45,906 nucleotides of DNA, from NCBI GenBank assembly GCA_030424545.1, contig JAUHWL010000020.1, positions 1-45,906 of the forward strand, given 5' to 3'. The stretch is from Bacteroidia bacterium (lineage in GTDB: Bacteria > Bacteroidota > Bacteroidia > Flavobacteriales > Schleiferiaceae). Made by a program: the position numbers and the translations under genes. Positions within the stretch are counted from its first letter, which is position 1, and each line of letters begins with the position of its first letter. The notes beneath the pieces were generated by a model that did no database searches, had not been told where the DNA came from, and saw nothing but the letters and a program-made list of their open reading frames with translations. Positions 14,865-36,700 of this stretch are shown here, one piece after another.

Positions 14865-15641
14865 ATGCTACATCACCAAATATATCTTTTAAATAAAAAT
14901 GCCCCATGGGTAACTTTTGTACATGGTGCAGGAGGTAGTAGTTCTATATGGTATAAGCAAATTAGAGATTTTAAAAAACATTATAATGTGCTCTTGTTAG
15001 ATTTACGTGGTCACGGAAAATCTAAAAAAGCCATTTATGAAAAAATAAAAAACTACACGTTTAAAGTAATTAGTGATGAAGTTATTGAAGTACTAGACCA
15101 CTTAAAAATTGCATCTTCTCACTTTGTAGGCATTTCTTTGGGCACCATTGTTATTCGGGAAATTTCTGAGCGGCATACTACACGTGTAGAAAGTATGATT
15201 ATGGGTGGTGCCGTTATGAAATTAAATACGCGTGGCCAGATATTAATGCACATTGGTAATTGGCTAAAGTCTGTACTACCATATTTAATCTTATACCGAT
15301 TTTTTGCATATGTAATTATGCCCAAAAAAAGCCATAAAGAATCTAGAAACTTATTTATTGGTGAAGCCAAGAAGCTTTATCAGAAAGAGTTTAAGCGATG
15401 GTTTACGCTTGTTGCAGAGGTTAACCCGCTCTTAAAATTTTTTAGAATCAATGATAGTGGCATCCCTACACTTTACATCATGGGCTCTGAAGACCACATG
15501 TTTTTACCATCTATTACTAAGCTTGTTAAAAATCACAAATCATCTACATTATTTGTTATACCCCAATGTGGGCATGTAGTAAACGTAGAACAACCTGCAA
15601 TTTTTAACAATCAAAGTATTTCTTTTATCTCGGGCCTTTAG
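14865..15641 (+). CDS. Alpha/beta hydrolase
   Basis: A 258-residue alpha/beta-hydrolase-fold protein without signal peptide, so probably cytoplasmic. The oxyanion-hole HGAGGSSSIW is near 21-30 and LRGHGKS near 47-53. The nucleophile elbow GISLG has Ser91, and the triad is completed by Asp210 (GSEDH) and His237 (QCGHVV). The lid helices (about 120-190) are rich in lysine and aromatic residues. Sequence alone cannot tell esterase, lipase or carbon-carbon hydrolase. Its 3' end overlaps the convergent TonB receptor gene by 17 bp; the two genes are transcribed towards each other, so they need not be functionally linked. Confidence 0.85.
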   Translation: MLHHQIYLLNKNAPWVTFVHGAGGSSSIWYKQIRDFKKHYNVLLLDLRGHGKSKKAIYEKIKNYTFKVISDEVIEVLDHLKIASSHFVGISLGTIVIREISERHTTRVESMIMGGAVMKLNTRGQILMHIGNWLKSVLPYLILYRFFAYVIMPKKSHKESRNLFIGEAKKLYQKEFKRWFTLVAEVNPLLKFFRINDSGIPTLYIMGSEDHMFLPSITKLVKNHKSSTLFVIPQCGHVVNVEQPAIFNNQSISFISGL

Positions 15642-18003
15642 CCTGCAAATTAATTTGTATTCCAGTTAAAAAGTTAATGCCTGCTTGCGGGTAATAATAG
15701 GCAACACCATAATCTGCACCATTGCTGGCGTAAGAAACATCAAACACATTGTTGATGTTAAAATAAACGCGCACAGAGCCAATCCAACTTGGGTTATATA
15801 GGTAAGAAAAACGTAAGTCGTTTATAAAGTAATCGGCAATAGAAAGGCTTTCTTCCTCGCTATTGTTTAAATATTGGCGGCTAACATATTTAGAAAATAT
15901 GCCTGCACTTAAATTCTTAATCGGCACGAATTCTAAGAAACTTCCTGCCACAACATTTGGAGAGTACGCAATAGCCGTATTGCCAATGTTTACAAACTCT
16001 CCGTTACCGCCTTCTACCAAATAATCTACATTCTGACTGACTATATAGGCCACATTGGGGCTCCATTTTAACCATTTTTTATGGGCAACAATGGCCGATA
16101 GTTCTACTCCAGAACGGTAGCTTTTACCTACATTTTTTCTGATAGGATAACCAACGGCATCTAGCTTACCCGTTAACACCAATTGGTTTGTGTAGTGCAT
16201 GTAAAACGCATTAGCCTTTAGGGTGAAGTTCTCTTTGCTCCAATCAAAACCCAACTCAATATCTTGTAGTGTTTCTGGTTTAGGTAAATCATCTGGGTCT
16301 GCGTAAATTAAATCGGTACGGTTGGGCTCTTTGTTGGCTACTGCGTAGCTTGCAAACAGCTTGCTGTTGGCGTTTAATACATACGTTGCTCCTATTTTAG
16401 GATTAAAAAAAATGTTTTTCTGATCGTAAGAAAATGCAGCAACATCATCATCTACACCATGGGCAGAATAATCTACGCTGCGCACCTGTAAATCTACAAA
16501 CGCCATTATTTTTTTGTTGATAGCATACATGTTTTTCCAATACACATTCCATTCAAACTTGGTAGAAAAGCTGTTGTAATATTCGTGATCGTTTTCTGTT
16601 TGGCTGGCATATCTCGCCCAAATTACCTGGCCAAAATGATTTCCTTCGTAATTGTGAACTCCCCCACCAAAAATGCTTTGCCATTTTTCATTTTCATATT
16701 CAATGTTAAAAATGGCGCCATAAAAATCGTTATCAAGCCATTTTCTTCTTACCAAATCGGTGGTTGTTATGGTATCATTGCCCATAATAATGGGGTACAT
16801 TCCATAGTAAGCCATATCGCCATCTTGCTTGTATTGCTCGTAATAGCCCTGCCCTTTTGTATAATGGCCAGAAACATTTAGCTTAAAAAGTTTAGAGAGC
16901 TTTTGGTTTACATGGAGCTGATAATGCGTTTGCTGGTAATTATCGGTTTCATTATCATAATAAGTAACTGAACCGTCTGGGTGATAAATTGCGCCTGCAC
17001 TATTGTACGTTGGGTCCGAAGCAAATGTTGCCGAATCTACACCATTCCAAGATTGATATGTTTTTTCTTTCCCTCCAAAAACTACGGCACGTACGGCCGT
17101 TTTTTCATTTACAAAACCACCGGTTACAAAATAACTTTGTAAATCAGAGCTGGCTCTATCTACATATCCATCGGTTTTTAGCTTGCTCAATCGCCCGCTC
17201 ATCCACCAATTTTTATTTATTAAGCCCGAGCCAAACTGGGCCGTATAGCGTTGTGTGTTAAAGCTACCGCCACCAACATGAATCATTCCCATTGGTTTTG
17301 CGGTAGGGCCATTGGTTTCCATATTTAAGCTAGCGCCAAAAGCGGAACTCCCGTTGGTGCTTGTTCCTACACCGCGCTGCAGTTGTATACTATTGGTAGA
17401 CGATGCCAAATCGGGCATATTTACCCAATAAACACCATGGCTTTCGGCATCATTCATAGGGATACCATTTACCGTAACATTAATCCTTGAAATATCGCTA
17501 CCGCGCACGCGCATGTTTGTATAGCCAATGCCTGCACCGGCATCGCTGGTGGTGATAACACTAGGCATTTGTTCTAGTAAATATGGTACATCACGGCCGG
17601 TATTTAAAACCTCTATTTCTTCTTTGTTTAAATTCTCATACGCCATGGGCGTGTTGGAATTTGCACGAATTGCATTAACCTCAACTGGCTCTAGCTCAGT
17701 AATTCCGGGTACCAATTTTACTTCAATTTGTTTTGGGTTAGTATTGGGCACCGCCACTTCAATGGTTTGATTTTCGTAACCAAACATGATAAATTTTAGC
17801 TGGTACGTTCCCGTGTCTGTTAGGGTGAACAAAAACTTACCTCCTGAATCGGTTTCTAGCGGAGAAAAATTTTTTAGTTGCAACACTACCCCCGGAATGG
17901 GCTGATTAGATTGTGCATCTAGCACAGTTCCTGTAAGCTTGATTTGTGCCGAAACACGGGCCCAAGCCATAAGCGCCAACGAGAAAAAGATGATCTTTTT
18001 CAT
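15625..18003 (-). CDS. TonB-dependent receptor under TPP riboswitch control, probable thiamine transporter
   Basis: The 792-residue outer-membrane receptor starts at ATG 18003; a GTG at 18024 would only lengthen the signal peptide, which ends ARVSAQ. Order: carboxypeptidase-like regulatory domain (about 20-105), plug domain (about 115-240; VPYLLEQMPSV, MRVRGSDISRINVTVNGIPMNDAESHGVYW), then a 22-strand barrel rich in aromatic beta pairs. The substrate is inferred from its leader, which contains a TPP riboswitch and a strong promoter: thiamine, thiamine phosphates or a precursor such as hydroxymethylpyrimidine. TPP-regulated TonB receptors are known in Bacteroidota. The C-terminus extends six residues past the last aliphatic strand and has no terminal aromatic. 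No thiamine genes are beside it. Confidence 0.9.
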   Translation of the reverse strand: MKKIIFFSLALMAWARVSAQIKLTGTVLDAQSNQPIPGVVLQLKNFSPLETDSGGKFLFTLTDTGTYQLKFIMFGYENQTIEVAVPNTNPKQIEVKLVPGITELEPVEVNAIRANSNTPMAYENLNKEEIEVLNTGRDVPYLLEQMPSVITTSDAGAGIGYTNMRVRGSDISRINVTVNGIPMNDAESHGVYWVNMPDLASSTNSIQLQRGVGTSTNGSSAFGASLNMETNGPTAKPMGMIHVGGGSFNTQRYTAQFGSGLINKNWWMSGRLSKLKTDGYVDRASSDLQSYFVTGGFVNEKTAVRAVVFGGKEKTYQSWNGVDSATFASDPTYNSAGAIYHPDGSVTYYDNETDNYQQTHYQLHVNQKLSKLFKLNVSGHYTKGQGYYEQYKQDGDMAYYGMYPIIMGNDTITTTDLVRRKWLDNDFYGAIFNIEYENEKWQSIFGGGVHNYEGNHFGQVIWARYASQTENDHEYYNSFSTKFEWNVYWKNMYAINKKIMAFVDLQVRSVDYSAHGVDDDVAAFSYDQKNIFFNPKIGATYVLNANSKLFASYAVANKEPNRTDLIYADPDDLPKPETLQDIELGFDWSKENFTLKANAFYMHYTNQLVLTGKLDAVGYPIRKNVGKSYRSGVELSAIVAHKKWLKWSPNVAYIVSQNVDYLVEGGNGEFVNIGNTAIAYSPNVVAGSFLEFVPIKNLSAGIFSKYVSRQYLNNSEEESLSIADYFINDLRFSYLYNPSWIGSVRVYFNINNVFDVSYASNGADYGVAYYYPQAGINFLTGIQINLQAKGPR

Positions 18004-18047
18004 GATAAATGATTTTTTTATCACGAAGTAATCGGGGCTGTTACTCG
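18004..18047 (-). promoter_or_regulatory. Candidate expression platform between riboswitch and start codon
   Basis: Two hairpins sit between the aptamer and the receptor ATG. One pairs 18024-18031 with 18041-18047 (CGA-a-GTAA with TTAC-TCG, 9-nt loop). The other pairs GATAAA (18004-18009) with TTTATC (18017-18022), directly touching the start codon. The second could hide the initiation region, which would fit translational control. No intrinsic terminator with a U tract is visible here. This is inference from pairing only. Confidence 0.45.
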
Positions 18048-18059
18048 ATGGATTTGTTA

Positions 18060-18151
18060 GTAATTAAAATTCCCTTGGCAGCATTATCTGCCCAGGTTCT
18101 ATGGGTATGATCTCAGCCACACCTATGGCGCGGCACCCCTATGAGAATCAC
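18060..18151 (-). ncRNA. TPP riboswitch (THI element)
   Basis: Read on the minus strand the leader contains the conserved THI-box pieces in the right order: GGGGTGCC, GGCTGAGATCATACCC (thiamine pyrimidine-binding CUGAGA), GAACCTG, CAGATAATGCTG and the closing CCAAGGGA. GGGT and ACCC can form P2. A P1 helix is possible between 18146-18151 and 18060-18065 (GUGAUU with AAUUAC). It begins close to the predicted transcription start. The element binds thiamine pyrophosphate and normally turns expression down when thiamine is plentiful. Confidence 0.95.
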
Positions 18152-18153
18152 GG

Positions 18154-18183
18154 CAAATGTACTCTGGTTTTTTAACTTGGCAA
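18154..18183 (-). promoter_or_regulatory. Promoter of the riboswitch-TonB receptor transcript
   Basis: On the minus strand TACATTTG (18154-18161) matches TAnnTTTG perfectly and lies 19 bases after a TTG (18181-18183), the expected -33 element and spacing for Bacteroidota. The predicted start near 18147 would begin the transcript right at the 5' edge of the TPP aptamer, which supports both calls. Confidence 0.8.
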
Positions 18184-18228
18184 GGAAGTTGGAAAGAAAG
18201 CCACAGTAACCTTTAAATAATTTTAATC

Positions 18229-19053
18229 ATGAAAAATTTAACCTTGATCTTGTTGTGCACACTTTCCTTTTTTTCGTGTCATCAAGCAACAGAGCAAACG
18301 GCCGATAACAGGTATACAGCCAAAGAAGCCGAATACGATGAGATGCCACAAACCGCTAGAGTTGATGAAACTTCAGAAGAAATAACGAACGCTGAAATAG
18401 AACGGAAATTAATTAAAAATGCCTTTTTGCAATATGAAACGAAGGATCTTGCAAAAACACATGCAGATATAAATGATGCCGTTAAAAAATGGAATGGCTA
18501 TTTGGCCAATGACGAAGAACAGAAATATTACAACCGTTATGCAAATGTGCTTGAGATAAGGTTACCTGCTGCCCATTTTGACGAATTTCTTGCCGAAATA
18601 ACAAAAGGCATTGCCCGCTTTGACGAAAAAAGCATAAACGTAACAGACGTAACCGAACAGTTTGTTGATTTAGAAGCACGATTAAAAACCAAAAAAGAAC
18701 TTGAAAAAAGATATTTAGCTCTACTTGCCAAAGCCAACACCGTCACCGAAATTTTAGAAATAGAACGAGAAATTGCCCAACTAAGAGGAGACATAGAGGC
18801 TATGGAAGGCCGTTTCAAACTGCTGAAAAATCAAATTTCTTTTTCTACCATTCGCGTTGAGTTTTATGTAACCACAGTAGAAGTTTATGAAGAAGATAGC
18901 CTTGGCCAAAAGATTGCCACCAATTTTATTCGCGGCTGGAACGGCATCATTGATTTTTTTGTGGGATTGGTACGAGTATGGCCGTTTGTTATAATACTCC
19001 TTGTATTAGCCTACTTTATTAAAAAACGATTCTCTAAAAATAAATCGAAATAA
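18229..19053 (+). CDS. DUF4349-family lipoprotein
   Basis: A 274-residue envelope protein. The N-terminus is a lipoprotein signal with SFFSC, Cys17 being the likely lipidated residue. Residues about 55-215 match the DUF4349 pattern: a first strand (KNAFLQYETKDL), LEIRLPAAHFDEFLAEI, VTDVTEQFVDLEARLKTKKELEKRYLALL and a coiled coil (about 150-200) ending ISFSTIRVEF. A single membrane helix at about 243-263 (VWPFVIILLVLAYFI) and a basic tail close it. The fold places the coiled coil outside the inner membrane. Function of the family is unsettled. It is monocistronic, divergent from the TPP-controlled receptor and ended by a strong terminator. Confidence 0.85.
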   Translation: MKNLTLILLCTLSFFSCHQATEQTADNRYTAKEAEYDEMPQTARVDETSEEITNAEIERKLIKNAFLQYETKDLAKTHADINDAVKKWNGYLANDEEQKYYNRYANVLEIRLPAAHFDEFLAEITKGIARFDEKSINVTDVTEQFVDLEARLKTKKELEKRYLALLAKANTVTEILEIEREIAQLRGDIEAMEGRFKLLKNQISFSTIRVEFYVTTVEVYEEDSLGQKIATNFIRGWNGIIDFFVGLVRVWPFVIILLVLAYFIKKRFSKNKSK

Positions 19054-23422: not shown

Positions 23423-26400
23423 TTACCGAACCACTTTAAATGTTTCTATAACTTCTGGTGTAGTTATGGTTACCATGTAAACTTGGATGTCTGGATCCGT
23501 AACTGGTATTACATAGTTTTCTTTTGTGCTTACTTTATCATTTCTGTGCAACACTTGGCCTAGTAAATTAGTTACCTGCACATTGGCTTGTAAGCTGCTC
23601 ATATTGCTGAATGAAACTTCTATACCTTCTGATGTTCCCCATGCTAACGTTGCAGGAGCAACAGGCTGGATAGGCGTAGAATTCATGCTAAAGTGAAGAA
23701 CAAAACGCTCCATTCTAAAGCTTGTTTTATTCATAAATTCATAAGCGCTAGAAGATAATTCGTGCCAAGCACCTGTTGCTTTATCTTCTAAGTATACTCT
23801 CCAACTTGGTGATGGAACTGCCACCATCTCTATGCGGAAAGGCTTATTATCTTTTGTAGAATAAAAACCTAAAGGCACTGTTGTTACATCTACAGGGTAT
23901 TGCATTTTGTTAATGATTAATGCTCTATTTTCTATAGATGAAAACAATACCGGAGCACCTTCTTGTGCACCATTCTTTTCAATATCGTATCCAAGATCAT
24001 ATCCATTGGTATAATCATAATCAAATACCAATTCTGTTGCATCTCCCAAAGAAGGGTTATCTACGTCTACTGCATACAGCATCATAAAATCATCTCCTTT
24101 TTTATAGTGAGGTGTGATTTCGCAACTAGAACGATAATCTGGCGAAAGGGTAACATTAATCGGGCCTGTTGTACCGTTTGCTGTAATACGATCTGCATCT
24201 ACATTATTGGCAGAGCTATTATTTGGATCAACAGCTGGATTTGGAGAATAAGGATCTAAATCTGCATTTGGAATAAAATCTTTTCTTCTTGTCTGGCTAC
24301 CGGTTACACGTCTAATATAGAACGATTGGAAAGGTGCGATTAAACGCGCTGTGGTTAACACGTTACCTGTTCCATTGCCTGGATAGGCAACAACGTTTCC
24401 GTTAGAAGCATCTACCGCAACATATGCACCTTTGCTAAATTGACCTGGTATAGGAGATGTGAATGCATCACCAGGATTCCAAATCCAAATGGCATGGTCA
24501 AACTCAGAACCAAAGAAATCTGCAGCTCCATTACCATTCATTTTCTGAACATCAAGTGTTACTGGGAAAACGTTTGGAACAAGATTCCATCCTCCCCAAT
24601 TATCATGTGTAGAAATAATTGCCGCTTCTGCATTTGTAGTTCCTTGTAGATTTACAATTGCTGGGAAAGAAGAAACGTTGTTATCATCTACAAAGAAGTT
24701 CATTCCATGGGCATTCAACTCATCCGTGCTTGAAACCATTCTCCAAGTTCCGTAAGCATGAGAGCTATAACCTGAACCACCTAAACCACCTGCAATAGAA
24801 TTGTTAGATCTGTTCATAAAGAATCCTTGCTCTTTTCCACTCGCATATTCTGTATCGTACCACCACAAGTTGTGTGTTCCTTCATCCATTGTTAAGTGAA
24901 CAAAATCAGGATTTACCAAATCATTATTTGCAGCGGCAAAATCAGCACCCGTTAATGGGTTGCCATTTTCTGCAGATACTGGAAATGCAATGTTATGCCA
25001 ACCGTCTTCACTTAAGGCCATTTCAAATATTGCATTTGGCATTTTTGGTCCTAAGTATTGGCCGTATTCTGGTGAGTTTGCTCCCGAACCATCATCAACC
25101 GCTAAGAATCTGATTGTACCATCATTCTTAATATTATCAGTAACTTTTAAACAGCTAGAAACTACGGCCTCTGTACCCGAATAGATAATGATGTTTTTAA
25201 CTGTTGCTGGAATATCTAAAATATCAGCATTTACATTAGGAGGATCAATCCAGAATAATGTTTTATCGCCATCATTAACATTTGGTTTACCGCTTCCATC
25301 AGAACCGTTTTCCCATCCTCCACCAGAGGTAAACTTAAGGGCGACAAACGGAATACTCAATGTCGTGGTATTGTCGCTTTCTGCTCCACTATCTGGGCCA
25401 TTGGCAACCTCTGCGTTATCTATTACTTTATAATCAATTGTTACACCATTACCATCTAAGAAAGATTCTATTGGAGTTACACTAATTGGTTGAGTAGGTA
25501 TGCCTAATGCATTTGTTGGCACTAACAATCCTGCAGCAGGAAGAAGTTGACAACTTGCCGTAGGACATGGACCTGCAGGCACTGAACCTTTATAGTACGT
25601 AGTTGTTCCAACCGATATACTCAATGTTTGCGCAGAAAAATCTGTAATCAGTAGGTTGGTAACTTCTCCATCAGGATCAGAACCACCAAAAGCAGCAACG
25701 GGTATCTCAAACGCACCAATTACACCTGGGTTATAACGCGTTCCTTGAACTACGTTGTTGATTACCGTTCCGGCTAAGTCTACAGCACCACTTGTTGGAA
25801 TTTGTTGAATTCCAAGATCGGCACTTACAACATTGCCCAACAATGAGTTAATGGGTGTACGTGTTGCTGGTGAAGTTGCTACCCAACCTGATGGAAGCAA
25901 TTCTGTTGGAATACCAGTTCCTTGATTTGTACCATCATCACCTTGATTGAAGCTATTGTCTGTTGACAATACAATGCTAAAATCGTCTCCTTGAATACAA
26001 TCATCAAAACTAAATGTACCATTTGCATTTACTGTGGCTTTATCCAGTACGGTTTGTAAACCTGTTTCCGGATTGATTCCAACTACATAAGCGTACAACC
26101 CTGTGGCATCTGTACCCGCTTCGCCAGCGGTAAAGATGTTTGCCCATGCTGCATCTCCACTACCATCAACATCTTGCCAAACTGTTCCGGCAATACTTGC
26201 TCTTGGCTCTGAGGCACAGAATGGAGTGCTTGGTGGATAATCTACCGCTCCAGAAATTTCTGCTGTTGGATTTACGGTTATTTGAAATTTAGTATCATTT
26301 GATCTATACCCACTAAAGCCATCTTCTTGGTTTACCCAACCTGCGCCCGTAAGAACCCATGCTGGCCAATTAGAGGCAACAGCTCCTAACGTAGTGTCAG

Positions 26401-29400
26401 CTCCTGGCCAAAGTGTTCTACCGTTATAAACAGTTCCCGATAAAACTGGTGTGCTTGCGGCAAACGTTGCATTTGTTCCAGCTAATACATTAGGATCTGG
26501 AATGCTTTGGTTGGTACCTTTTGTCCACAAAATGTCTCCAACCAAGCCTGTCATATCAAAATTGGCGGTTATGGTGTAATCCATAAACGGAACATCATTC
26601 ACACAAACAGCAGTTCCAACAACTGTAAGGGTTCTTTCTCCGCTAAATACTAAGTTCACTACGCCAGTACCATCATCTTCTAATCCTGCATTATCTACAA
26701 CTTTATATGTAAATACAGGAATGATAGAACCCAATACATTGTCGAAAGGATCAATAGCCACAACAGGAACTGGATTACCTCCAGCATTCCCAACTGCTGG
26801 AAACTCTACTGAACCAACTGAACTAAAGTCTACACATGAATATGGTGTAGGGCAAACTCCTGGAATTGCTGCCGCATTTGGATAGTATCTATTTGTACCT
26901 ACCGTAAAACTTGTTGTGTTTGACGGGAAGGCTGTAATTTTTATAACTTCAACCGTACCATCCGCATCAGTACCCGTAAACAAAGCTGCATCAACTGTTT
27001 CTAAAGATGTTCCTCCCGGGTTTGGTTTACCTGCTGCAGTAATTGTTGGTGTTGTTACTGGTGCAATTTCAAATCCAAAATTTATATCAAGTTGATCTGC
27101 TGTTAACGTAACAACAAATTCTCCGTCTGGAGTACCGTCTCCACTTGTAGACGTTCCAATACCTTCACCAACATTGCCCCATCCTATAGGTAGGCTTGTT
27201 GCTGGTTTAGGCTGACCTTCTACACCTTGTACGGTGCTTAGTTGTATTGTTGCTCCGGGTATTGAAGCTACATCAAGGCTCCAAGATCCGTTTGTCTCTA
27301 CAGGTGTTGTAGCTACAACATTTCCATTATCATCTATATAATTAATAAATAATGGCGCAGTGCCTGTATTGCCCAAATCTGCACTTCCTTGAGATGTACC
27401 GTTAAAAGTATTATCAGTCAATCCGTTTGGATCATACCAAACTGTACCTCCAATGCTAAATGTTTCTGGTTTAACCAGTACATGTAGGGTTGCTTCGGTA
27501 CATGCCTGAGGAGAGCCATTATCACAAACGGTATACACAAATTCTCCTGGTCCAGTGTAACCTGCGGCCGGGGTAAATGTATACGAACCATCTATACCAA
27601 ATGTTACAGAACCAGCAGGGTTAGAAACTGTACCTGCTGTAACGGATAATGTATTTCCTTCTGGATCAACATCATTACTTAAAACGTTGCCAGATACACT
27701 TATTCCTTTTTCTGTTTCTATATAATCATCACTCGCACTAATAGAGTTTTGTGCTTCGGTAGGTAATACCGTAATTTCTTGAACTGCTTCCGTACAAAGT
27801 GCTGGACTTTGATTGTCGCATACGATATATGTATAGCTAACCACACCGGTAAATCCTGATGTAGGAACAAATTCAATTTCACCTGTTGCAGGGTTCACCG
27901 TTAACGAACCTTGAGTTCCCGCATTTGGTTCTGTACCCGCTTTTATAGATACGCTTGCAGGATCTAACAAAGTTCCTGGTGTACCTACGGCATCATTAGC
28001 AAGTGTATTTAAAACTACTGTTTGTCCTTTTTTCGTTGTGGCCATATCTGTATTGGCAACTGGAGGAACATTTGTAGTAAGTCCTTGGTCTTCTACAGTA
28101 ATGGTTAATGTTTCTGTTTTGCAAGTTGATTCTGGCGCTTGCCCATCCAAACATACAGGAACTTCAAATACATAAACACCTATTAAGGTTGGTGTAAATG
28201 AATATGTACCATCTGGATTCATTGTAGGAACAACACCATTTGGATTTCCACCATCTGCGACAGGGGTTCCGTAGGTTGTACCTGCAACAAGATTATCATT
28301 TGTATTTACATCACCTGTTACAGCTTGATTTACAAAAGTAGCATTGAAGTCTGGGTTGGTCTCAAATGGATCTACAACAATATAAAGCGTAGCACTTGCA
28401 CAAGCATTTCCGTCACATACCTCATAATCTAAAGAAACAGGCCCTGTAAACCCAGGTGCAGGTGTAAATGAGTAACTTCCATCTAAGGCGATTAAGAATG
28501 TTCCTTTACCTGGTACAGTTCTAGATCCTGCTGAGGCCACAGAAACTTCTAACGTTGCCAAATTATCTGTTGTATGATCATTGGCTAAAAGACCTTCTGC
28601 TGCTGTTGCCGTTACTGCATTTCCTTGTTGCGTTCTGTTGTAATCGTCTGCAGCAGAAACAGCACTACTTGTTGCACCAAGTACTGTAATTTCTTGTGTT
28701 GCCGTGGCACAGTTTGCTGTTAGCACCGTTTCGCAAACTTGATATTCGTAAGAAAGTGTACCAACAAAACCTGCAACTGGTGTAAACGTAATTTCACCCG
28801 TTGTGGAATTTATGGTCAACGAACCTTCTGTTGCTGGATTTGGTGTACCCGATACTATCGTTACAGATGCTGGATTAAGCGTAGCGCTTGTACTTCCTGC
28901 TTTATCATTTGCCAACGTGTTTAAAACTACAGGTATTTCTTCTAAAGTAGTTGCTATATCTGTGTTTGCTGTTGGTGCATTTGTATTGATGGTCTGGTCT
29001 GTAACAACAATGCTTAATTCGGTAGATTCACAGTTTGGGGTCACCAAAGGCGGCACACAAACTTCTACACTATACTCATACACTCCTGGTAAGTTTCCAG
29101 TAAACTCATATGTTCCATCTGCCAACATGGTAATTGTAGGCGCACTTCCTGATGGGCTAGATGTTAGCGATGGTGACGTTCCATAAGTAGTTCCTGCCGG
29201 TACGTTATCGTTTGTAGATACATCTCCCGGAACGGGAACATTAACATGTGTTGCGTTAACATCAGGGTTTACATTTTCACAACGTGTAGTAATTACTGCA
29301 ATGTTGTTAGCATAATCACACTCAGCATAACTGGTAGTTGGCATTTCAATGGGCGATGCTTGTGTACCATCATCATTGGCTACAGCAAATATTTTAGTGT

Positions 29401-32400
29401 TGGGAGATATGCCTGTAATGTTCACACTTAACACACCCGAACTCTGACCTGCTAATATTGCATTGGCCAATGTTTCCGTTTGTAATACTGTAGCTCCTGG
29501 CGTCAGTGGACTTCCTGCATAAAAGGTAATTTTCATTCCTGCAGGTATGGCAACCAAATCAGCAAAATTGGTTATGGTGTAGGTTAATGATAACGTTGTG
29601 CTTGGACATGGTAGCGTTGCTGACTCTATGACCAAAGCGGCATCAAATACTGGGAAAGAAGGACAACCATCTACAGTGAAATAGGTAGACTGAACGTTAA
29701 ATGTATTTAATGGACGTTCTGCAAATTGCGTAGGGCAAAATTGATTATTAAAATAAAGTTGTTGCCCATGATTTGATTGATACTGAGGAATAGAAAGGTT
29801 ATCATTAATATGCGTATTGAAATATGCATATTGATTCCAAACATTTCTTGCTGGTGCCCATGGTGCTAAAGAAGACTCATATACTTCAATATCACCAAAT
29901 CCGCTTCCTTCTTGATCGTTTACCACAATTTCTGCGGCTCCATCGCCATCCACATCACCAACAATAGGGCTTTCCATACCTGTTGAAGAATTTACAGGTA
30001 TAGTAGCTAATACAATCGGTGCTGCTCCTGAACCATCAAAAATTCGTAATTCATCTTCATCGCGATAAACCATTTCTTGTTTACCGTCTTGATTAAAATC
30101 AAACATGGTAATACCTGTTCTACCAGAATCATCAGTAGTTGTTAGCACCCATTTTACAGAAAAAGTTTTTGTATTTGGGTCATAGCTTAACATTTTTACC
30201 GCATAGCGAACACATAACCCCATATCAGGATCTCCATCTCCATCTACATCTCCAACAAAGAATGCACCGTGTTGCTCACCAACACCACTACCACCTACGG
30301 CAATGCTTCCCATGCTTCGATTTCCTGAAGCTAGACGTGGGTTCCATGCATAAACTCTGGTGTCATCAGCACCAACTCTTGCACTTACCAAAACGTCAAG
30401 TTCTCCATCTAAGTCAATATCGGCCAATGCAGTATAACCATCTATATCGGTTCCGCTATTAACGCCTGTAAAGTTTATAGGCGTCATGCTATTTCCAGAA
30501 GTTCCTGTTGTATTAGTAATTACAACATTATACACTGTTCTACCTGCGGCCAATTCTAAACCTGGACTAGATGTTAAATCACCCGCTACCGAAATAGCTT
30601 GAATTACACCTCCATACGCATAAGGGCTACCAATACCATTTGCACCACCTTGCGCAAGCTTCACACCCGATTGGGCATTAAATATTTCGTTATAAACATA
30701 AACCTCAGGAATTCCGTCTTCGTTAAAATCGGCAATACCAACAGAAGAACCACTTCCGTTAGCCCCTGCATTAACACCGTACTGGGCATTCGACTTCCAT
30801 TTTAACGCACCTGTGTGTTCGTAACAATAAAGATATCTTTGATCTGCCGCAGCATTTCTTGCATATAAAGAAGCTACAATAAATTCGGCAAAACCATCGC
30901 CATCTACATCAGCAACTGCAAAAGCACTTGGGCCATCGGTTGATAAATAAGGTGTATTTATGGTTGTTTGTACCGTACCGTCTTCTCCATTAAAAACTAG
31001 AATATTAGTTGCACTTCTCTGCCCAGAAGTTCCAAAAGTATGATCAAGATTTTCATCGCTTAAAGAAATGATTTCTGTGGTACCATCACCATCAATATCT
31101 GCCATTAATGGAGAACTGTACAAGGCGATTAAATCTGTACCTGGAGTTTGATATTTTTTAGAAATGCCAAATGTAGTGGTTGGATCTGGTGCCGATTGAC
31201 ACAATGGAACCGGTTGATTTATATAACCATCTACTAGGTCTGAGATAAATACACGCGCTGTTGCCTGATGACAATTTGTAGGGTTAGCAATTTCACAAAT
31301 TTCATACACTACCGTTAAGTCGCCTGGTTGCGTGTTAGCCGCTACATTTAATTCCCCCTTGTTTGTTCCTGAAGTTATTAAGGTTAACCCCGGAGAGCTA
31401 GAAATTACTGATAACGTTACTGCAGCTGGTGCAAGCTGCGAGCCATTTAAATGATCATTGGCCAATACATCTGCAATGGCAATTCCCCCTGCACTAGAAA
31501 GTGCTGTAGAAAAATCATCTACGGCAACAAGACAAGCAACCGAGCCATAGCTTGGTACTGTTCCCGCAACGGCCAAGTTATTATTTGGTGAAGGATCTTT
31601 TGTAGTAACATCGCTTATTGTTGCTGTGTTTATGTAACTACCATCACAATTTACAATGCAGTTAATTTTTAGAGTAGCACTACTGTTTGCCGCTAGTGTA
31701 CCAATATTCCAAACTCCTGTAGCACTATTGTAGGTACCTACAGGTGAATTGCCAAGGTTAGCAAACGTGTAACCAGAAGGCAATAAATCGTTAACAATTA
31801 CAGAAGTCGCATCTTCTGTTGAAGAATTGTTTACTGCTGTTAATTCAAATGTTATTACATCTCCCGTTAAAGGTGTACTATTAGTAACCGTTTTGAAAAT
31901 AGCTAAATCTACTGGAACCAACGGTAGGTATTCAAAAATCAATTCTGCTGCGTTACTCGCAGAGCCATTGTCATACGAATCTGCAATTCTTCTCGAATTT
32001 ATATCGCCTGTTCCTGAAATAATAATAACAATATCATTGCCAGAAACCCATCCTGGTCTATCAATGATTTCTTGTAAAATAGGAGAAATATCTACCGTAC
32101 GTTCTGACGCAGTTCTGTCATCATTGGTCCAAGTTCCAGGCGACCAAGTAACGGTAGCCGAAGTAGTGGTTCTTGAAGTAATATCAAAATTTGTAGCGAC
32201 AAAGGTTGGAGCATCGTCTATAGCTTGCCCTTTGATTGTTAACGTAATGGGGTCTGAATGCGAAGCATCTGCCGTAAATTGTATATAAGCATTGGATATT
32301 GTCATACCCTTTGGCACAGTAACGTTAGTAAAACGTAAACCATTGGTTTGATTTCCTGTACCATCATCATCAAATGGTAACTCCAAATCTGTACTGGCTA

Positions 32401-33502
32401 AACTCACATTACCGTTAGAAGATTGTTGCTCGGCATCATCACTACCTGAGTTTACTAAACGATTGAATGTAAAAGGCACATTTGGATCGTAAACCTCAAT
32501 CAAACGGGTACCACTGCCCGTTGATGGATTTGCATTTCCATCTGTTGCTCTAAGTGTTGCTACATAAGACCCAACCGTATTATACGTATGACTTGCCATA
32601 AAAGGACCAGCACCAGGACTACCAGAAGCAGGTGCATAGGCTGTTGCCGCAGTAGGCCTCCAATCTGCACTTACTACTCCATCTGCATCTGTTGCGCTCC
32701 AAGCAAAATTTACTGTAGATCCAACCGCCACATACAGCGGGCTAGGCGTTGCGCTTGGCGATGTAATGGTAAGTACAGGTGCTGGGTTTGCAACTGGTTT
32801 TACCGAAACAGCACCTAATGCCCAATCGCGTGAATTGTTTACTGTATAACTAACCGTTGCACTAGTGGAACCGCCTTTTGTAGAACCTCCAGCAGAAATT
32901 CTATCACCTTGCCCTGAATTTCCCGTAATATGTGAATAAGTATTCAACTGACCAGCGCCAAAACCCGTATTTGGGTCACTATCTCTAGTAGAATAAGCAC
33001 TAAAGATAATTTCGTTTGAAGCCGAAGCTATGCTGTTTCTAGATAAATTACTTCCACTACCCGTTGAGCTGATAAACGTATTGAGCGGGTTTATTTGATC
33101 TACACCAGAAAAGGTAACAACACCCATAACAATTCCTCTATTGGTACTACTCGTTAAAGTAGCTGTTAGGTTTGCCGTACTTCCAGGAAAGTTAGCATTT
33201 AATAAATAATAGAAGCGAACATTTGCTCGGTTCCCATTCGTTACAAGTCCGCTTGGAACTGGAGTTAAAGCGTTCCCACCATATGTAACACCAGTTGCTG
33301 TTTCTCCTTGTGCGCCTGAAACGGCTACCATTAACAACCTGTTACTTCCTGCAGGTGGCGCATATGAAAGTGTAATTGTAGATGAAGCTGTTCCTGATGC
33401 CACAGTAGTAGAACTTCTGTTAAGCACCGTAACTTGCCCATACGCAAGTTGCGTAAAAATAAAAGCAACGATTAATAATAAGCTCTTTGTAATTGTTTGC
33501 AT
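23423..33502 (-). CDS. Giant secreted multidomain surface protein (3359 aa)
   Basis: A 3359-residue exported protein with a signal peptide ending QLAYGQ. Domains in order: beta-rich N-terminal domain (about 25-235); PKD/Ig-like (about 240-335); a module of about 180 residues (about 345-535) also present in the neighbouring giant protein; a DUF11 domain (about 540-650, VDLAIFKTV...NNNLAV); seven FG-GAP/VCBS-type calcium loops with DxDGDG (about 790-1190); Ig-like and tandem-95/cadherin-like repeats with ANDxATTL and GSYSFTPAPGFTG motifs (about 1400-1980); SdrD-B-like domains (GGTVWYDPNG, AGTVWQDVDG); then a long beta region. The C-terminus (VQVTNLLGQVLHR...YMVTITTPEVIETFKVVR) resembles a T9SS sorting domain but lacks the YPNP box. 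Likely a calcium-stabilised adhesin or exopolymer-binding protein. Confidence 0.88.
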   Translation of the reverse strand: MQTITKSLLLIVAFIFTQLAYGQVTVLNRSSTTVASGTASSTITLSYAPPAGSNRLLMVAVSGAQGETATGVTYGGNALTPVPSGLVTNGNRANVRFYYLLNANFPGSTANLTATLTSSTNRGIVMGVVTFSGVDQINPLNTFISSTGSGSNLSRNSIASASNEIIFSAYSTRDSDPNTGFGAGQLNTYSHITGNSGQGDRISAGGSTKGGSTSATVSYTVNNSRDWALGAVSVKPVANPAPVLTITSPSATPSPLYVAVGSTVNFAWSATDADGVVSADWRPTAATAYAPASGSPGAGPFMASHTYNTVGSYVATLRATDGNANPSTGSGTRLIEVYDPNVPFTFNRLVNSGSDDAEQQSSNGNVSLASTDLELPFDDDGTGNQTNGLRFTNVTVPKGMTISNAYIQFTADASHSDPITLTIKGQAIDDAPTFVATNFDITSRTTTSATVTWSPGTWTNDDRTASERTVDISPILQEIIDRPGWVSGNDIVIIISGTGDINSRRIADSYDNGSASNAAELIFEYLPLVPVDLAIFKTVTNSTPLTGDVITFELTAVNNSSTEDATSVIVNDLLPSGYTFANLGNSPVGTYNSATGVWNIGTLAANSSATLKINCIVNCDGSYINTATISDVTTKDPSPNNNLAVAGTVPSYGSVACLVAVDDFSTALSSAGGIAIADVLANDHLNGSQLAPAAVTLSVISSSPGLTLITSGTNKGELNVAANTQPGDLTVVYEICEIANPTNCHQATARVFISDLVDGYINQPVPLCQSAPDPTTTFGISKKYQTPGTDLIALYSSPLMADIDGDGTTEIISLSDENLDHTFGTSGQRSATNILVFNGEDGTVQTTINTPYLSTDGPSAFAVADVDGDGFAEFIVASLYARNAAADQRYLYCYEHTGALKWKSNAQYGVNAGANGSGSSVGIADFNEDGIPEVYVYNEIFNAQSGVKLAQGGANGIGSPYAYGGVIQAISVAGDLTSSPGLELAAGRTVYNVVITNTTGTSGNSMTPINFTGVNSGTDIDGYTALADIDLDGELDVLVSARVGADDTRVYAWNPRLASGNRSMGSIAVGGSGVGEQHGAFFVGDVDGDGDPDMGLCVRYAVKMLSYDPNTKTFSVKWVLTTTDDSGRTGITMFDFNQDGKQEMVYRDEDELRIFDGSGAAPIVLATIPVNSSTGMESPIVGDVDGDGAAEIVVNDQEGSGFGDIEVYESSLAPWAPARNVWNQYAYFNTHINDNLSIPQYQSNHGQQLYFNNQFCPTQFAERPLNTFNVQSTYFTVDGCPSFPVFDAALVIESATLPCPSTTLSLTYTITNFADLVAIPAGMKITFYAGSPLTPGATVLQTETLANAILAGQSSGVLSVNITGISPNTKIFAVANDDGTQASPIEMPTTSYAECDYANNIAVITTRCENVNPDVNATHVNVPVPGDVSTNDNVPAGTTYGTSPSLTSSPSGSAPTITMLADGTYEFTGNLPGVYEYSVEVCVPPLVTPNCESTELSIVVTDQTINTNAPTANTDIATTLEEIPVVLNTLANDKAGSTSATLNPASVTIVSGTPNPATEGSLTINSTTGEITFTPVAGFVGTLSYEYQVCETVLTANCATATQEITVLGATSSAVSAADDYNRTQQGNAVTATAAEGLLANDHTTDNLATLEVSVASAGSRTVPGKGTFLIALDGSYSFTPAPGFTGPVSLDYEVCDGNACASATLYIVVDPFETNPDFNATFVNQAVTGDVNTNDNLVAGTTYGTPVADGGNPNGVVPTMNPDGTYSFTPTLIGVYVFEVPVCLDGQAPESTCKTETLTITVEDQGLTTNVPPVANTDMATTKKGQTVVLNTLANDAVGTPGTLLDPASVSIKAGTEPNAGTQGSLTVNPATGEIEFVPTSGFTGVVSYTYIVCDNQSPALCTEAVQEITVLPTEAQNSISASDDYIETEKGISVSGNVLSNDVDPEGNTLSVTAGTVSNPAGSVTFGIDGSYTFTPAAGYTGPGEFVYTVCDNGSPQACTEATLHVLVKPETFSIGGTVWYDPNGLTDNTFNGTSQGSADLGNTGTAPLFINYIDDNGNVVATTPVETNGSWSLDVASIPGATIQLSTVQGVEGQPKPATSLPIGWGNVGEGIGTSTSGDGTPDGEFVVTLTADQLDINFGFEIAPVTTPTITAAGKPNPGGTSLETVDAALFTGTDADGTVEVIKITAFPSNTTSFTVGTNRYYPNAAAIPGVCPTPYSCVDFSSVGSVEFPAVGNAGGNPVPVVAIDPFDNVLGSIIPVFTYKVVDNAGLEDDGTGVVNLVFSGERTLTVVGTAVCVNDVPFMDYTITANFDMTGLVGDILWTKGTNQSIPDPNVLAGTNATFAASTPVLSGTVYNGRTLWPGADTTLGAVASNWPAWVLTGAGWVNQEDGFSGYRSNDTKFQITVNPTAEISGAVDYPPSTPFCASEPRASIAGTVWQDVDGSGDAAWANIFTAGEAGTDATGLYAYVVGINPETGLQTVLDKATVNANGTFSFDDCIQGDDFSIVLSTDNSFNQGDDGTNQGTGIPTELLPSGWVATSPATRTPINSLLGNVVSADLGIQQIPTSGAVDLAGTVINNVVQGTRYNPGVIGAFEIPVAAFGGSDPDGEVTNLLITDFSAQTLSISVGTTTYYKGSVPAGPCPTASCQLLPAAGLLVPTNALGIPTQPISVTPIESFLDGNGVTIDYKVIDNAEVANGPDSGAESDNTTTLSIPFVALKFTSGGGWENGSDGSGKPNVNDGDKTLFWIDPPNVNADILDIPATVKNIIIYSGTEAVVSSCLKVTDNIKNDGTIRFLAVDDGSGANSPEYGQYLGPKMPNAIFEMALSEDGWHNIAFPVSAENGNPLTGADFAAANNDLVNPDFVHLTMDEGTHNLWWYDTEYASGKEQGFFMNRSNNSIAGGLGGSGYSSHAYGTWRMVSSTDELNAHGMNFFVDDNNVSSFPAIVNLQGTTNAEAAIISTHDNWGGWNLVPNVFPVTLDVQKMNGNGAADFFGSEFDHAIWIWNPGDAFTSPIPGQFSKGAYVAVDASNGNVVAYPGNGTGNVLTTARLIAPFQSFYIRRVTGSQTRRKDFIPNADLDPYSPNPAVDPNNSSANNVDADRITANGTTGPINVTLSPDYRSSCEITPHYKKGDDFMMLYAVDVDNPSLGDATELVFDYDYTNGYDLGYDIEKNGAQEGAPVLFSSIENRALIINKMQYPVDVTTVPLGFYSTKDNKPFRIEMVAVPSPSWRVYLEDKATGAWHELSSSAYEFMNKTSFRMERFVLHFSMNSTPIQPVAPATLAWGTSEGIEVSFSNMSSLQANVQVTNLLGQVLHRNDKVSTKENYVIPVTDPDIQVYMVTITTPEVIETFKVVR

Positions 33503-33707: not shown

Positions 33708-36700
33708 CTACCTAAATATAACAATGGGCAAACGTTGCGTAGTTAGGTCATTTTGTATCACTACAAAGTACTGGCCTGTTGGCAAGTTTGCTAGTTCTAT
33801 TGTTTCGGTAATATTTCCTTCAATCCTTATGTTTTGCTCCATAAGTATTTTTCCATATACATCTATTAATTGCAGTTTAGCCTTTGTGCCAATTTCTTTG
33901 TTAAAGCTTACCACAAACTGATCTACAACTGGATTTGGATATAGCTTGGCCTGAATAGCATTTTGATCATGGTTGGTGGTAACCAACGAACCTTGATTTG
34001 TGTTGCTATTCTTGGTTGCAATAAAGGTACCGAAGGCCAAGTAAGCAATCTGCTCTGAATTGTGGCTACGGCTATTGTCCCGTAATTGATCCTCATCTGC
34101 CCACATAGTTAAGCTAGTTCCGGTAGGTCCGTTTGCACCCGCAAACACTGGCCAATGTCCTTCGCTACCATCCATGCCCGCTGCACTTAAAATTGCATTT
34201 GTTGCATTTAATGGTAACCCTACGCTATACCCGCTGCTTGAGTTATCAGGTCCTTGAATATAGTCTCCAGTATTCCCTGCGGTATAATCCATTCCATTCA
34301 CAGATCCATCTCCGGCTTCAATCACAATAACGCCAATGGTTTCATCATTTCTACTTCGGTCACTATCTTCTGCCACATGCTTGCTTGCATTATACCCTCT
34401 GTATCCAGCATTTGCTACAGCTTTTCGGTCGCGGTCATCGCTGCTCCAAAATACACTCCAATCTGCATCGTTCACACTCATTACTTGGCCCAATACAATC
34501 GGGTTGGTATAAGCATTTGCATAGCTTCTGTTTTCTGTTCTAAACTTCTTTCTGTATGAAGTTTCGTCAGACACAAAAAGATTGGCTTCCATTTTTATAC
34601 CATGGCTTGCTATCGTATATGTTCCTTCTTCTACAACCATATACTGTACTGCATAATTGCCAACAGAAGAACTGTTGTTTGGACGTTGCACTTTTATCTG
34701 GAATGAATTTCCGCTAGCGTTGTTGATACGCGTAACAACAGGATCTACCGAGTTTGATGCGTAAACAGGATTAGCAATAACCACCATATTGGTGTACGTA
34801 TTTGTTAACGTTACCGTTTGCCATGTCCCTGTAACACTTGCTAAGCTCCCCACTTCTAGTGGAATTCCAACAGGTGCTGTTTGCACACTTATACTTTCGG
34901 TTAATGTTGCTGTTAATCCTTGATCATCAGTTACGGTTAAAGTTGCCGAATAGTTGCCTGAACTAAGGTACGTGTGGGTAGTTGTTTGCCCTGAACCTGA
35001 ATTTCCATCGCCAAAATCCCACGCATAACTCACTATACTACCATCGGCATCAGCACTAGAAGTTGCATCAAAGTTTACTGGCAAAGGAGCATATCCGCTG
35101 GTTGCCGATGCTACAAATGCAGCTGTTGGCGCCATATTAGGAGCAGCAACTGTAATAGAGGTAAATGCCATACCCGTTGCACCTTGGTTGTCTGTTACTG
35201 TAAGTACAGCGGTAAAATTGCCACCAGAAGTATAGGTGTGATTTGTGTTTGATGCCGTAGAAGTAGCTCCATCACCAAAATCCCAAGCATAACTAATAAT
35301 GCTTCCATCAGAATCTACACTACCTGCACTAGAAAAAGCAATGGCAAGTGGCGCCTGGCCGCTCGTAGTGCTCGCTCCTAAAACTGCAGTTGGTGCTAAA
35401 TTAGCTGGAGAAATTGTAATTGTTTTAGAATATGTTCCTGTTGCACCAAAATTATCGGTTACCGTAAGCACGGCCGAGAATACACCACTACTTGTATAGG
35501 TATGAGAAACAATTTTGTGCGTACCTCCTGGCCCTGACGATGTGTTTCCATCTCCAAAATCCCAGGAATAAAGGTCGATAGTTCCATCTCCATCTAAAGC
35601 GCCCGAAGCATTAAATGAAATTGCCTTTGGTGCTTGCCCTCCGTTAGAAGAAGTTGTAAACGATGCCGTTGGAGCAGAATTCGGAATATTTACAGTAATC
35701 GTTGCCGTTGCATTGGCGGTAGCGCCCATATCATCGGTAACTACCAAAGTAACTGTGTAAACTCCAGCAACATAATATGTATGCCATGGCAATGTTCCTG
35801 TTCCTGTACTTCCATCATCAAAATCCCAAGCATAGCTAACAATGCTACCGTCTACATCCACAGATGCTGACGCATCAAAATATACGGTAAACGGAGCGTT
35901 GCCTGTAGCCGTTGCCGGTGTAAAGGAAGCTGTTGGAATAACATTAGGTAAACCTGTAGTAACAATCGTTATGGTTTCTTCGTCTGTATCTCCATCGTCA
36001 TCATAGGCAATAGCTTTTACAGAATAATTACCTACGTTATTAAAATTCATGGAAAAACTGTAAGGAGCAGAAAAATCAGTGCCTATTAGATTACCATCTT
36101 GATAGAACTCAACTTTATCAATGTTTCCATCAGAATCTGTTGCATTTACATCTATAGAGATAGTTGCTGGCGCTGGATAAGAAGAGTTATTTGCCGGGCT
36201 TGAAATATTCATGGTTGGCGGCACATTAGGCTGCACAGTAGAATATTCAATAAACAGCTCTGCGGCTTGTGCGGCAGACCCTTCATAGGCTTCTGCCGTT
36301 CTTGTACCTGTACCCGTTATGATAATGGAAAGCGCATTTCCAGAAGTCCACCCAGCTCTAGAAACAATCTCAGCGATAATTGCCTTTATGTCTGGCGTTT
36401 GCTGGCCGGCACCACTTTGGCCTGTACTTGACCACGTTGGCGGAGACCATGCTACGTTTGCTGTTGTATTTGTTCTAGAACTAACATCGCCATTAGAAGT
36501 TGAGAATGCCACAGAATTATCTGCATCATGCCCGTGAATGTTTAATGAGGCTGTTCCTGTTGAAGTTTCATCTGCTGTAAACTGAATGTATGCATTGGTA
36601 ATGGTAGCTCCTTGCGGAATGGTTACGCCATTAAAACGCAATCCAACCGTTTGATTATTTTGGCTATTGTAACTATCATAAACCAGCTCAATATCTGTAC

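Follow-up and report, generated by a model that had tools for sequence, protein, structure and literature searches.

The locus studied here raises the question of what the leader of a TonB receptor gene senses, and how such a leader could stop translation in a phylum without Shine-Dalgarno sequences. The window, i.e., the whole stretch of DNA that was analysed, comprises 45,906 nucleotides of contig JAUHWL010000020.1 from a Bacteroidia bacterium (Flavobacteriales; Schleiferiaceae; assembly GCA_030424545.1). An earlier note, made from the letters alone, had read the leader as a complete TPP riboswitch with its own promoter and a hairpin at the start codon of a receptor for a thiamine-type substrate. 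Elsewhere, the window contains a 3359-aa ORF (23423-33502, minus strand), a protein of 1538 aa whose N-terminus resembles purple acid phosphatases/metallophosphatases and which carries Ig and PKD repeats plus a Por secretion tail (33708-38324, minus strand), and an HTTM domain protein whose lumenal domain resembles that of vitamin K-dependent gamma-carboxylase (40756-42186, plus strand).

The whole leader element lies on the minus strand, which the earlier note had not named, and reads in the order TTG, 19 nt, TACATTTG, aptamer, linker and ATG of a 792-aa TonB receptor (Table 1). The TAnnTTTG box and the TTG at 19 bp that the note had described are both present. Since the -7 box of Flavobacterium psychrophilum is described as spanning -12 to -5 (PMC9723704), the window transcript should begin at about 18149, directly at the aptamer, whose Rfam match runs from 18150; this predicted start agrees with the start site at the aptamer edge proposed earlier. 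The arrangement recurs in relatives: of 225 distinct leaders, 194 carry a TAnnTTYG box within 45 nt 5' of the P2 GGGG, compared with 409 of 11250 shuffles, and its usual distance to the P2 strand is 10-16 nt. As judged by sequence comparison, the predicted promoter sits at the aptamer edge and leaves scant space for P1. The predicted transcripts of many relatives start with (G)UCUCA, and in the free RNA this UCUCA may pair with the core UGAGA. A consensus scan of the minus strand of 17950-18250 found no terminator-like site, in agreement with the absence of a terminator reported before.

Table 1. Features of the leader and of the receptor gene in the window (the transcript start is predicted).
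Feature	Position	Strand	Basis
-33 TTG element	18181..18183	-	sequence; 19 nt from -7 box
-7 box TACATTTG	18154..18161	-	sequence; predicted transcript start ~18149
UCUCA at predicted transcript 5' end, complementary to core UGAGA	18142..18146	-	sequence
Aptamer as predicted transcribed	18071..18149	-	RF00059 match 18054-18150; own model R1 88.5 bits
AGGGGU, P2 5' strand; GGGGU also complementary to HpA loop	18135..18140	-	RF00059 alignment, leader comparison
CUGAGA core (J3/2, aminopyrimidine pocket)	18111..18116	-	RF00059 alignment; contacts as described in passages of PMC7824784
Collapsed P4-P5 arm CCUGGGCAGAUAAUGCUGCCAAGG, single G.A mismatch replacing J4/5	18073..18096	-	RF00059 alignment, arm comparison
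HpA (anti-sequestor), CGAGUAA / UUACU(U)CG, loop CAGCCCCGA	18024..18047	-	leader comparison, covariation
CCCC of HpA loop, complementary to GGGG of P2	18034..18037	-	fold, leader comparison
HpB (sequestor), 11 bp, pairs whole AUG; 18027-18017 with 18009-17999	17999..18027	-	fold, leader comparison, covariation
Start codon AUG	18001..18003	-	sequence; signal-peptide-like N-terminus after it
TonB-dependent receptor, 792 aa: carboxypeptidase-regulatory-like domain, plug, barrel	15625..18003	-	Pfam PF13715, PF07715, PF00593

The TPP riboswitch model RF00059 matched the leader with 49.2 bits (E 8.3e-9, 401 bases searched), and this is the sole RF00059 match at E <=1 in the window genome (3.4 Mb, 99.97% complete). 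Under Rfam's own thresholds, no match is listed in the window, because the score lies below the gathering cut-off of 54.3 bits. The covariance search that had been suggested as a check is therefore positive by its E value and falls short by Rfam's cut-off. P2, P3 and the CUGAGA core are visible in the alignment; the leader has the P2/P3 core with the CUGAGA lonepair triloop as well as a P4-P5 arm with the U-turn loop. What it lacks is the J4/5 loop with the pyrophosphate contacts C77 and G78, as either strand of J4/5 lacks a nucleotide and the consensus AU/CG reads G-/C-. Canonical P1 is also lacking, with two of five pairs possible; an alternative P1-like GAUUC/GAAUU pairing, noticed by eye, is a candidate only. 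The claim that all conserved THI-box blocks are present thus fails at J4/5 and P1. The 171-nt leader stretch folds better than all but one of 200 shuffles. In the canonical riboswitch, the pyrophosphate is described as being held by two Mg2+ ions plus direct contacts from C77 and G78, and the nucleotides near TPP as highly conserved (PMC7824784); U59, A80, G60, C77 and G78 are listed among the highly conserved positions (PMC3764141). Since the pyrophosphate loop is absent, TPP is a presumed ligand of the window aptamer. In the explanation that we favour as probable (see below), the aptamer descends from a TPP riboswitch and keeps the aminopyrimidine-binding core, base pairs having replaced the J4/5 that grips the pyrophosphate.

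This collapse of the arm is conserved. RF00059 matches at E <=0.01 occur in 73 of the 88 genomes of the window's GTDB family and exceed the cut-off in nine. Among 80 family loci whose arm was read, 58 had a collapsed arm, 21 a canonical one and one neither. Only three of the 58 collapsed matches pass the Rfam cut-off; it misses the other 55 together with 15 of the 21 canonical matches, so that these elements are under-annotated in the family and a low score alone does not mark the collapsed variant. Counting collapsed forms by the bit score of our own model R1, built from 39 sequences including that of the window, was likewise rejected, since the canonical arm at L286 scores 63.8 bits with it. 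Across 39 collapsed aptamers, 97.6% of cells were paired, with eight doubly changed pairs, and none of 500 shuffles came as high, although our pair-shuffle tests, here and below, ignore the kinship of the sequences. Both P3 and P4-P5 covary, the P4-P5 arm alone being 100% paired. In 62 distinct 24-nt arms, retrieved with an expression under which the former loop need not pair, the two bottom pairs of P5, which occupy the former J4/5 positions, form in 59 and 60 arms (35.8 and 29.6 after shuffling), and five pair types (GC, AU, CG, UA and wobble) occur at each position. The expression for canonical arms, by comparison, demands U66, C81 and G82, and their constancy there is by construction. One G.A mismatch is retained in 60 of the 62 arms. 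Other collapsed subtypes carry a bulged N with a G.U pair, or no mismatch at all (L349), and this variety indicates at the sequence level that the pocket is replaced by helix by more than one route.

Collapsed arms are found well beyond the window's family. In named genomes, a degenerate pattern retrieved at least 118 stretches, and among the matches listed a CUGAGA core lay within 45 nt in 117 of 118. Going by their titles, these matches are mostly from Flavobacteriales, some from Bacteroidales and rarely from outside Bacteroidota (Pontiella, Gallionellales, Mobiluncus). In a phylum sample of 395 genomes, the collapsed pattern occurred in 19, all in the window's class, and the canonical pattern in 196. 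In the window's order, 80 of 296 genomes carried the collapsed pattern (one of them, G225, by chance match) and 62 the canonical one, where the strict pattern makes the 80 a lower bound. All 19 further R1 matches without the strict pattern that were read had a collapsed arm in front of a TonB receptor (L352 left out). In the order around G635, apparently Bacteroidales, most arms are canonical: of 26 arms read in 30 loci, five are of the 24-nt collapsed kind, L301 is of the bulged kind, and L298 and L306 are intermediate. For the leader comparisons, 194 of 198 leaders were located, namely from 80 family loci (of which L005, L046, L067 and L080 were missing) and 118 pattern loci; at least four pattern loci duplicate family loci (L123 = L019 was checked; L169, L170 and L194 were recognised by eye). 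Outside Bacteroidota, collapsed or near-collapsed arms precede ThiC in Gallionellales (L114, with an A.C mismatch in P5) and Pontiella (L109 and L133). Our verdict from these comparisons is that the collapsed form is real and widespread in Bacteroidia.

The gene downstream in the window matches the TonB plug and barrel families (PF07715, PF00593) like an OMthi-type receptor, so the assignment of a TPP-family leader to a TonB receptor is sound. Sequence comparison of the receptor with the PDB yielded zero solved relatives, and the only NCBIfam model to respond was a siderophore-receptor model (91.3 bits vs a cut-off of 223.5). An in-frame GTG at 18024 would extend its ORF to 799 aa. Among the matches listed, a TonB receptor is the first gene behind collapsed aptamers in 156 of 168 readable loci. 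In the family this holds for all 56 loci that could be read out of 58, and in the pattern set for 100 of the 112 that could be read out of 118. The remaining pattern loci encode, according to Pfam, ThiC (L109, L114, L133), hydroxyethylthiazole kinase (L145, L193), TenA (L159) and solute-binding proteins (L157, L179), and by eye another ThiM (L164), a THI4-like protein (L160) and two stubs (L090, L190). Collapsed aptamers are consequently not exclusive to TonB genes, and ThiC, hydroxyethylthiazole kinase and TenA place the collapsed group, as RF00059, in control of thiamine synthesis or transport genes. In the phylum sample, a TonB receptor follows 18 of 19 collapsed aptamers (the exception, L229, is THI4-like by eye) and 12 of 30 canonical ones. 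Of the 16 readable canonical aptamers of the family, 10 stand before a TonB receptor, two before a PF04973 transporter and four before a methyltransferase-like protein. Methyltransferase-like ORFs follow canonical aptamers at L003, L004, L006, L007 and L265 (Methyltransf_11 at L004, the rest by eye).

The window genome has no match to ThiC, nor to the thiamine pyrophosphokinase family PF04263. It does encode a transporter of PF04973, the family to which PnuC and PnuT belong, and no RF00059 match accompanies it. This gene lies at L278 1486-2085 (G000 contig 24), and the relatives L012 and L033 carry a canonical leader there. The lack of ThiC and the presence of the transporter agree with the thiamine-type substrate postulated earlier, and by context the window receptor is a putative thiamine uptake gene. 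Of the 88 family genomes, some of them incomplete, 86 are without ThiC irrespective of aptamer class; the collapsed form is accordingly not supported as a marker of thiamine auxotrophs.

What, then, could an aptamer with such an arm bind? We put TPP at roughly even chances, thiamine or TMP a little below that, and any other compound as quite unlikely. If TPP is still sensed, which we regard as evenly balanced, the collapsed arm would grip the pyrophosphate in another way, one candidate being Mg2+ at the G.A mismatch; affinity might then be lower, which would make the outer-membrane receptor the last to be shut off. A quick tree of 101 receptors, a few of them on long branches, points in this direction: the collapsed and canonical classes interchange eight times on it, seven of the changes being forced by well supported branches, and sister pairs such as L040/L035, L269/L234 and L250/L191 differ in aptamer class, which speaks for a common ligand. 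The presence of ThiC, hydroxyethylthiazole kinase and TenA genes behind collapsed aptamers in a few genomes and the retention of the G.A mismatch fit as well. Against continued TPP sensing, the remnant of J4/5 differs among the subtypes, and by the published descriptions of the contacts (PMC7824784, PMC3764141) the pyrophosphate-contacting C77 and G78 cannot both be present and unpaired in a collapsed arm.

Alternatively, loss of the pocket may have moved the ligand to imported thiamine (or TMP), making the riboswitch phosphate-blind or thiamine-selective, as would befit an uptake gene; we hold this to be possible, though the less probable answer. It accounts for the replacement of the pyrophosphate loop by arbitrary pairs next to an invariant aminopyrimidine core, and for genomes that contain both classes. 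In genus g21, the collapsed leader precedes a TonB receptor in all nine genomes in which it was read, and eight of the nine have a canonical aptamer elsewhere; in the window's family, G023, G025, G026 and G030 combine a collapsed aptamer at the TonB gene with a canonical one at a PF04973 transporter or methyltransferase gene. A change of ligand fits less well with the interchange of classes on orthologous receptors, with the ThiC genes behind collapsed aptamers in Pontiella and with canonical aptamers that precede TonB genes too in relatives without ThiC.

Between the aptamer and the receptor gene, leader comparison revealed two hairpins, HpA and HpB (Table 1). The hairpin said to touch the AUG corresponds to HpB, which pairs the whole start codon in the window; HpA, its overlap with HpB and the complementarity of its loop to P2 are new relative to the earlier note. 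In many Flavobacteriaceae, HpA reads GAAUAA-nn-RCCCCUU-UUAUUC, with the CCCC mostly 25-35 nt before the AUG, and HpB pairs the AUG as in the example UUUUAUUCGUAA / UUACGAAUGAAA. TCTC at the predicted transcript start is associated with HpA (111/11/24/79, counts that ignore kinship). In 53 nonredundant leaders, the covariation scores were 0.392 for HpA (shuffled 0.250; slid versions <=0.163) and 0.318 for HpB (shuffled 0.220; slid versions <=0.120), and none of 500 shuffles reached either; the count of doubly changed pairs alone was unexceptional, being reached by 220 of 500 (HpA) and 74 of 500 (HpB) shuffles. The two hairpins share six alignment columns (28-33) and are thus mutually exclusive. 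The Mobiluncus leaders L157 and L179 were excluded from the HpA/HpB covariation, the stability and the loop-P2 analyses.

The start region is also unusually structured. Over -24 to +12, 55 nonredundant leaders, picked for a CCCC 22-40 nt before the AUG and not for a hairpin, had a mean of -7.27 kcal/mol; the values were -2.42 with the flanks shuffled and -2.16 at 130 other starts of the same loci. The AUG was fully paired in 38 of the 55 leaders, in 326 of 1100 shuffled flanks and in 22 of the 130 other gene starts. The comparison with the other gene starts gave p 5e-18. Start codons were picked automatically, and some look wrong (e.g., L010, L103, L115, L121, L145); part of these were corrected in the 55-leader set. 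Canonical-aptamer relatives of genus g7 follow the same hairpin logic with different letters, and several genomes of family f6 show, by eye, a CCUUUUAUUC / GAAUGAAAGG hairpin pairing. The conserved start-site pairing for which the note had proposed to align orthologous leaders is therefore present in many relatives; in some clades the aptamer is kept and the hairpin pairs the AUG region partly or not at all, so that the outcome named in the note as refuting the platform model does occur in part. Between aptamer and AUG, 56 of the 167 distinct leaders lack a CCCC. Six from Bacteroidales (L112, L117, L129, L151, L156, L187) have 3-4 nt between the collapsed arm and the called AUG, which suggests that the aptamer itself could mask the start codon there. 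The platform is thus not universal.

The loop of HpA, RCCCCU, is complementary to AGGGGU on the P2 5' strand. We examined this complementarity in 59 leaders, i.e., the 53 plus six added by hand. Of the 59, 55 can pair loop and P2 at position -1 (45.8 after shuffling, p 1e-4), by A-U, C-G, U-A or U-G; at -2, pairing is possible in 44 of 59 (p 0.014), and at -3 the covariation stops (p 1.0). The window leader is an exception, with A.G at -1 that leaves GGGGU:GCCCC only. Its minimum-energy fold contains the loop-P2 pairing together with HpB while HpA is missing, a coexistence that argues against simple mutual exclusion of the two pairings in this leader. In 45 of 53 leaders, HpB is the more stable hairpin when HpA is taken by itself; with the loop-P2 pairing included, in nearest-neighbour sums that have no pseudoknot term, the ligand-free ON state beats the OFF state in only 25 of 53. 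Such near parity of the computed states would suit a switch, yet it proves none.

In the mechanism that we propose, the CCCC of the HpA loop would pair with GGGGU of the P2 5' strand when ligand is absent, and HpA would occupy the strand that HpB requires and so keep the AUG free (ON). With ligand, P2 would be fixed, HpA would be left alone and weaker than HpB, and HpB would form over the AUG, stopping receptor synthesis (OFF). As the phylum lacks Shine-Dalgarno sequences, the AUG itself would be the target of masking; in Flavobacterium johnsoniae, initiation is described as depending partly on start-site structure (PMC6847099). The collapsed arm, HpA, HpB and their overlap emerge directly from sequence comparison; we infer which way the leader switches, that loop and P2 pair in vivo and what the ligand is. 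On balance, we consider it probable that this is a thiamine-responsive OFF switch at the level of translation, composed of a TPP-derived collapsed aptamer and the HpA/HpB platform. The translational platform assumed in the earlier note is in this way strengthened, by the conserved and covarying start-site hairpin and the missing terminator, and extended by HpA and its complementarity to P2.

A hairpin at the start codon could also act uncoupled from the aptamer, as a constitutive brake or an RNA thermometer. Some leaders do have HpB without a recognisable CCCC loop, and the weakened loop-P2 pairing of the window, coexisting with HpB in the predicted fold, would suit such a hairpin; we nevertheless think it unlikely, because the HpA/HpB overlap and the loop-P2 complementarity accompany the aptamer in both aptamer classes. 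A decaying remnant without function that resembles RF00059 by chance is scarcely credible despite the score under the Rfam cut-off and the almost vanished P1, and is already refuted at the sequence level by a core, P3 and P5 that are conserved or covary over 39 collapsed aptamers and in many genera, and by a conserved promoter and platform.

The collapsed aptamer and its platform have two wider implications. A widespread form without the pyrophosphate contacts would mean either a second mode of TPP binding or a changed ligand, and the platform offers a concrete, covariation-backed model for riboswitch action in a phylum without Shine-Dalgarno sequences. Tentatively, these leaders could constitute a widespread natural class for unphosphorylated thiamine (or for thiamine whatever its phosphorylation) that arose from the TPP aptamer by pocket collapse and gates the AUG independently of Shine-Dalgarno sequences through two exclusive hairpins and an anti-P2 loop pairing, a proposal we regard as possible rather than probable. 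Variant riboswitches were reportedly surveyed by Weinberg et al. (PNAS, 2017), and a 2019 preprint (bioRxiv 867226) is said to concern TPP riboswitches of Bacteroides and their control of transcription or translation. A translational mode of TPP control in Bacteroides may thus be on record already, and the collapsed pocket is the newer part.

Among bacterial riboswitches, those for TPP have been described as forming the most abundant single class. In the portions of the open literature consulted, we found no description of TPP aptamers without J4/5, nor of the HpA/HpB platform. Covariation models of whole riboswitches published in 2026 include a TPP model that starts from predicted terminators, and the terms Bacteroid, Flavobacter and TonB are all absent from the main text as accessible (PMC13273304). 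A 5' element that senses thiamine is also on record for F. psychrophilum, with no detail in the passages concerned (PMC9723704). A near counterpart by published description is OMthi (BT2390) of Bacteroides thetaiotaomicron, likewise a TPP-family leader on the gene of a putative TonB-dependent thiamine receptor. OMthi mRNA is reported to change minimally with thiamine, which fits control after transcription, and the same source calls the mode of action of TPP riboswitches in the phylum uncertain (PMC5613172, in the sections cited). In the AdoCbl riboswitch, a C-rich loop also pairs with a distant element to control expression, but according to the description of that platform its pseudoknot forms upon ligand binding (PMC2258182). 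The HMP-PP (thiS motif) riboswitch likewise senses a compound of the thiamine pathway, but is described as having another architecture and an aptamer embedded in a terminator (PMC6478431). With the TPP riboswitch (THI element, RF00059) itself, the collapsed form shares P2, P3, the CUGAGA core, a P4-P5 arm with UNAU loop and the thiamine gene context, whereas it differs in having J4/5 turned to base pairs, canonical P1 almost missing and the predicted transcript start at the aptamer edge.
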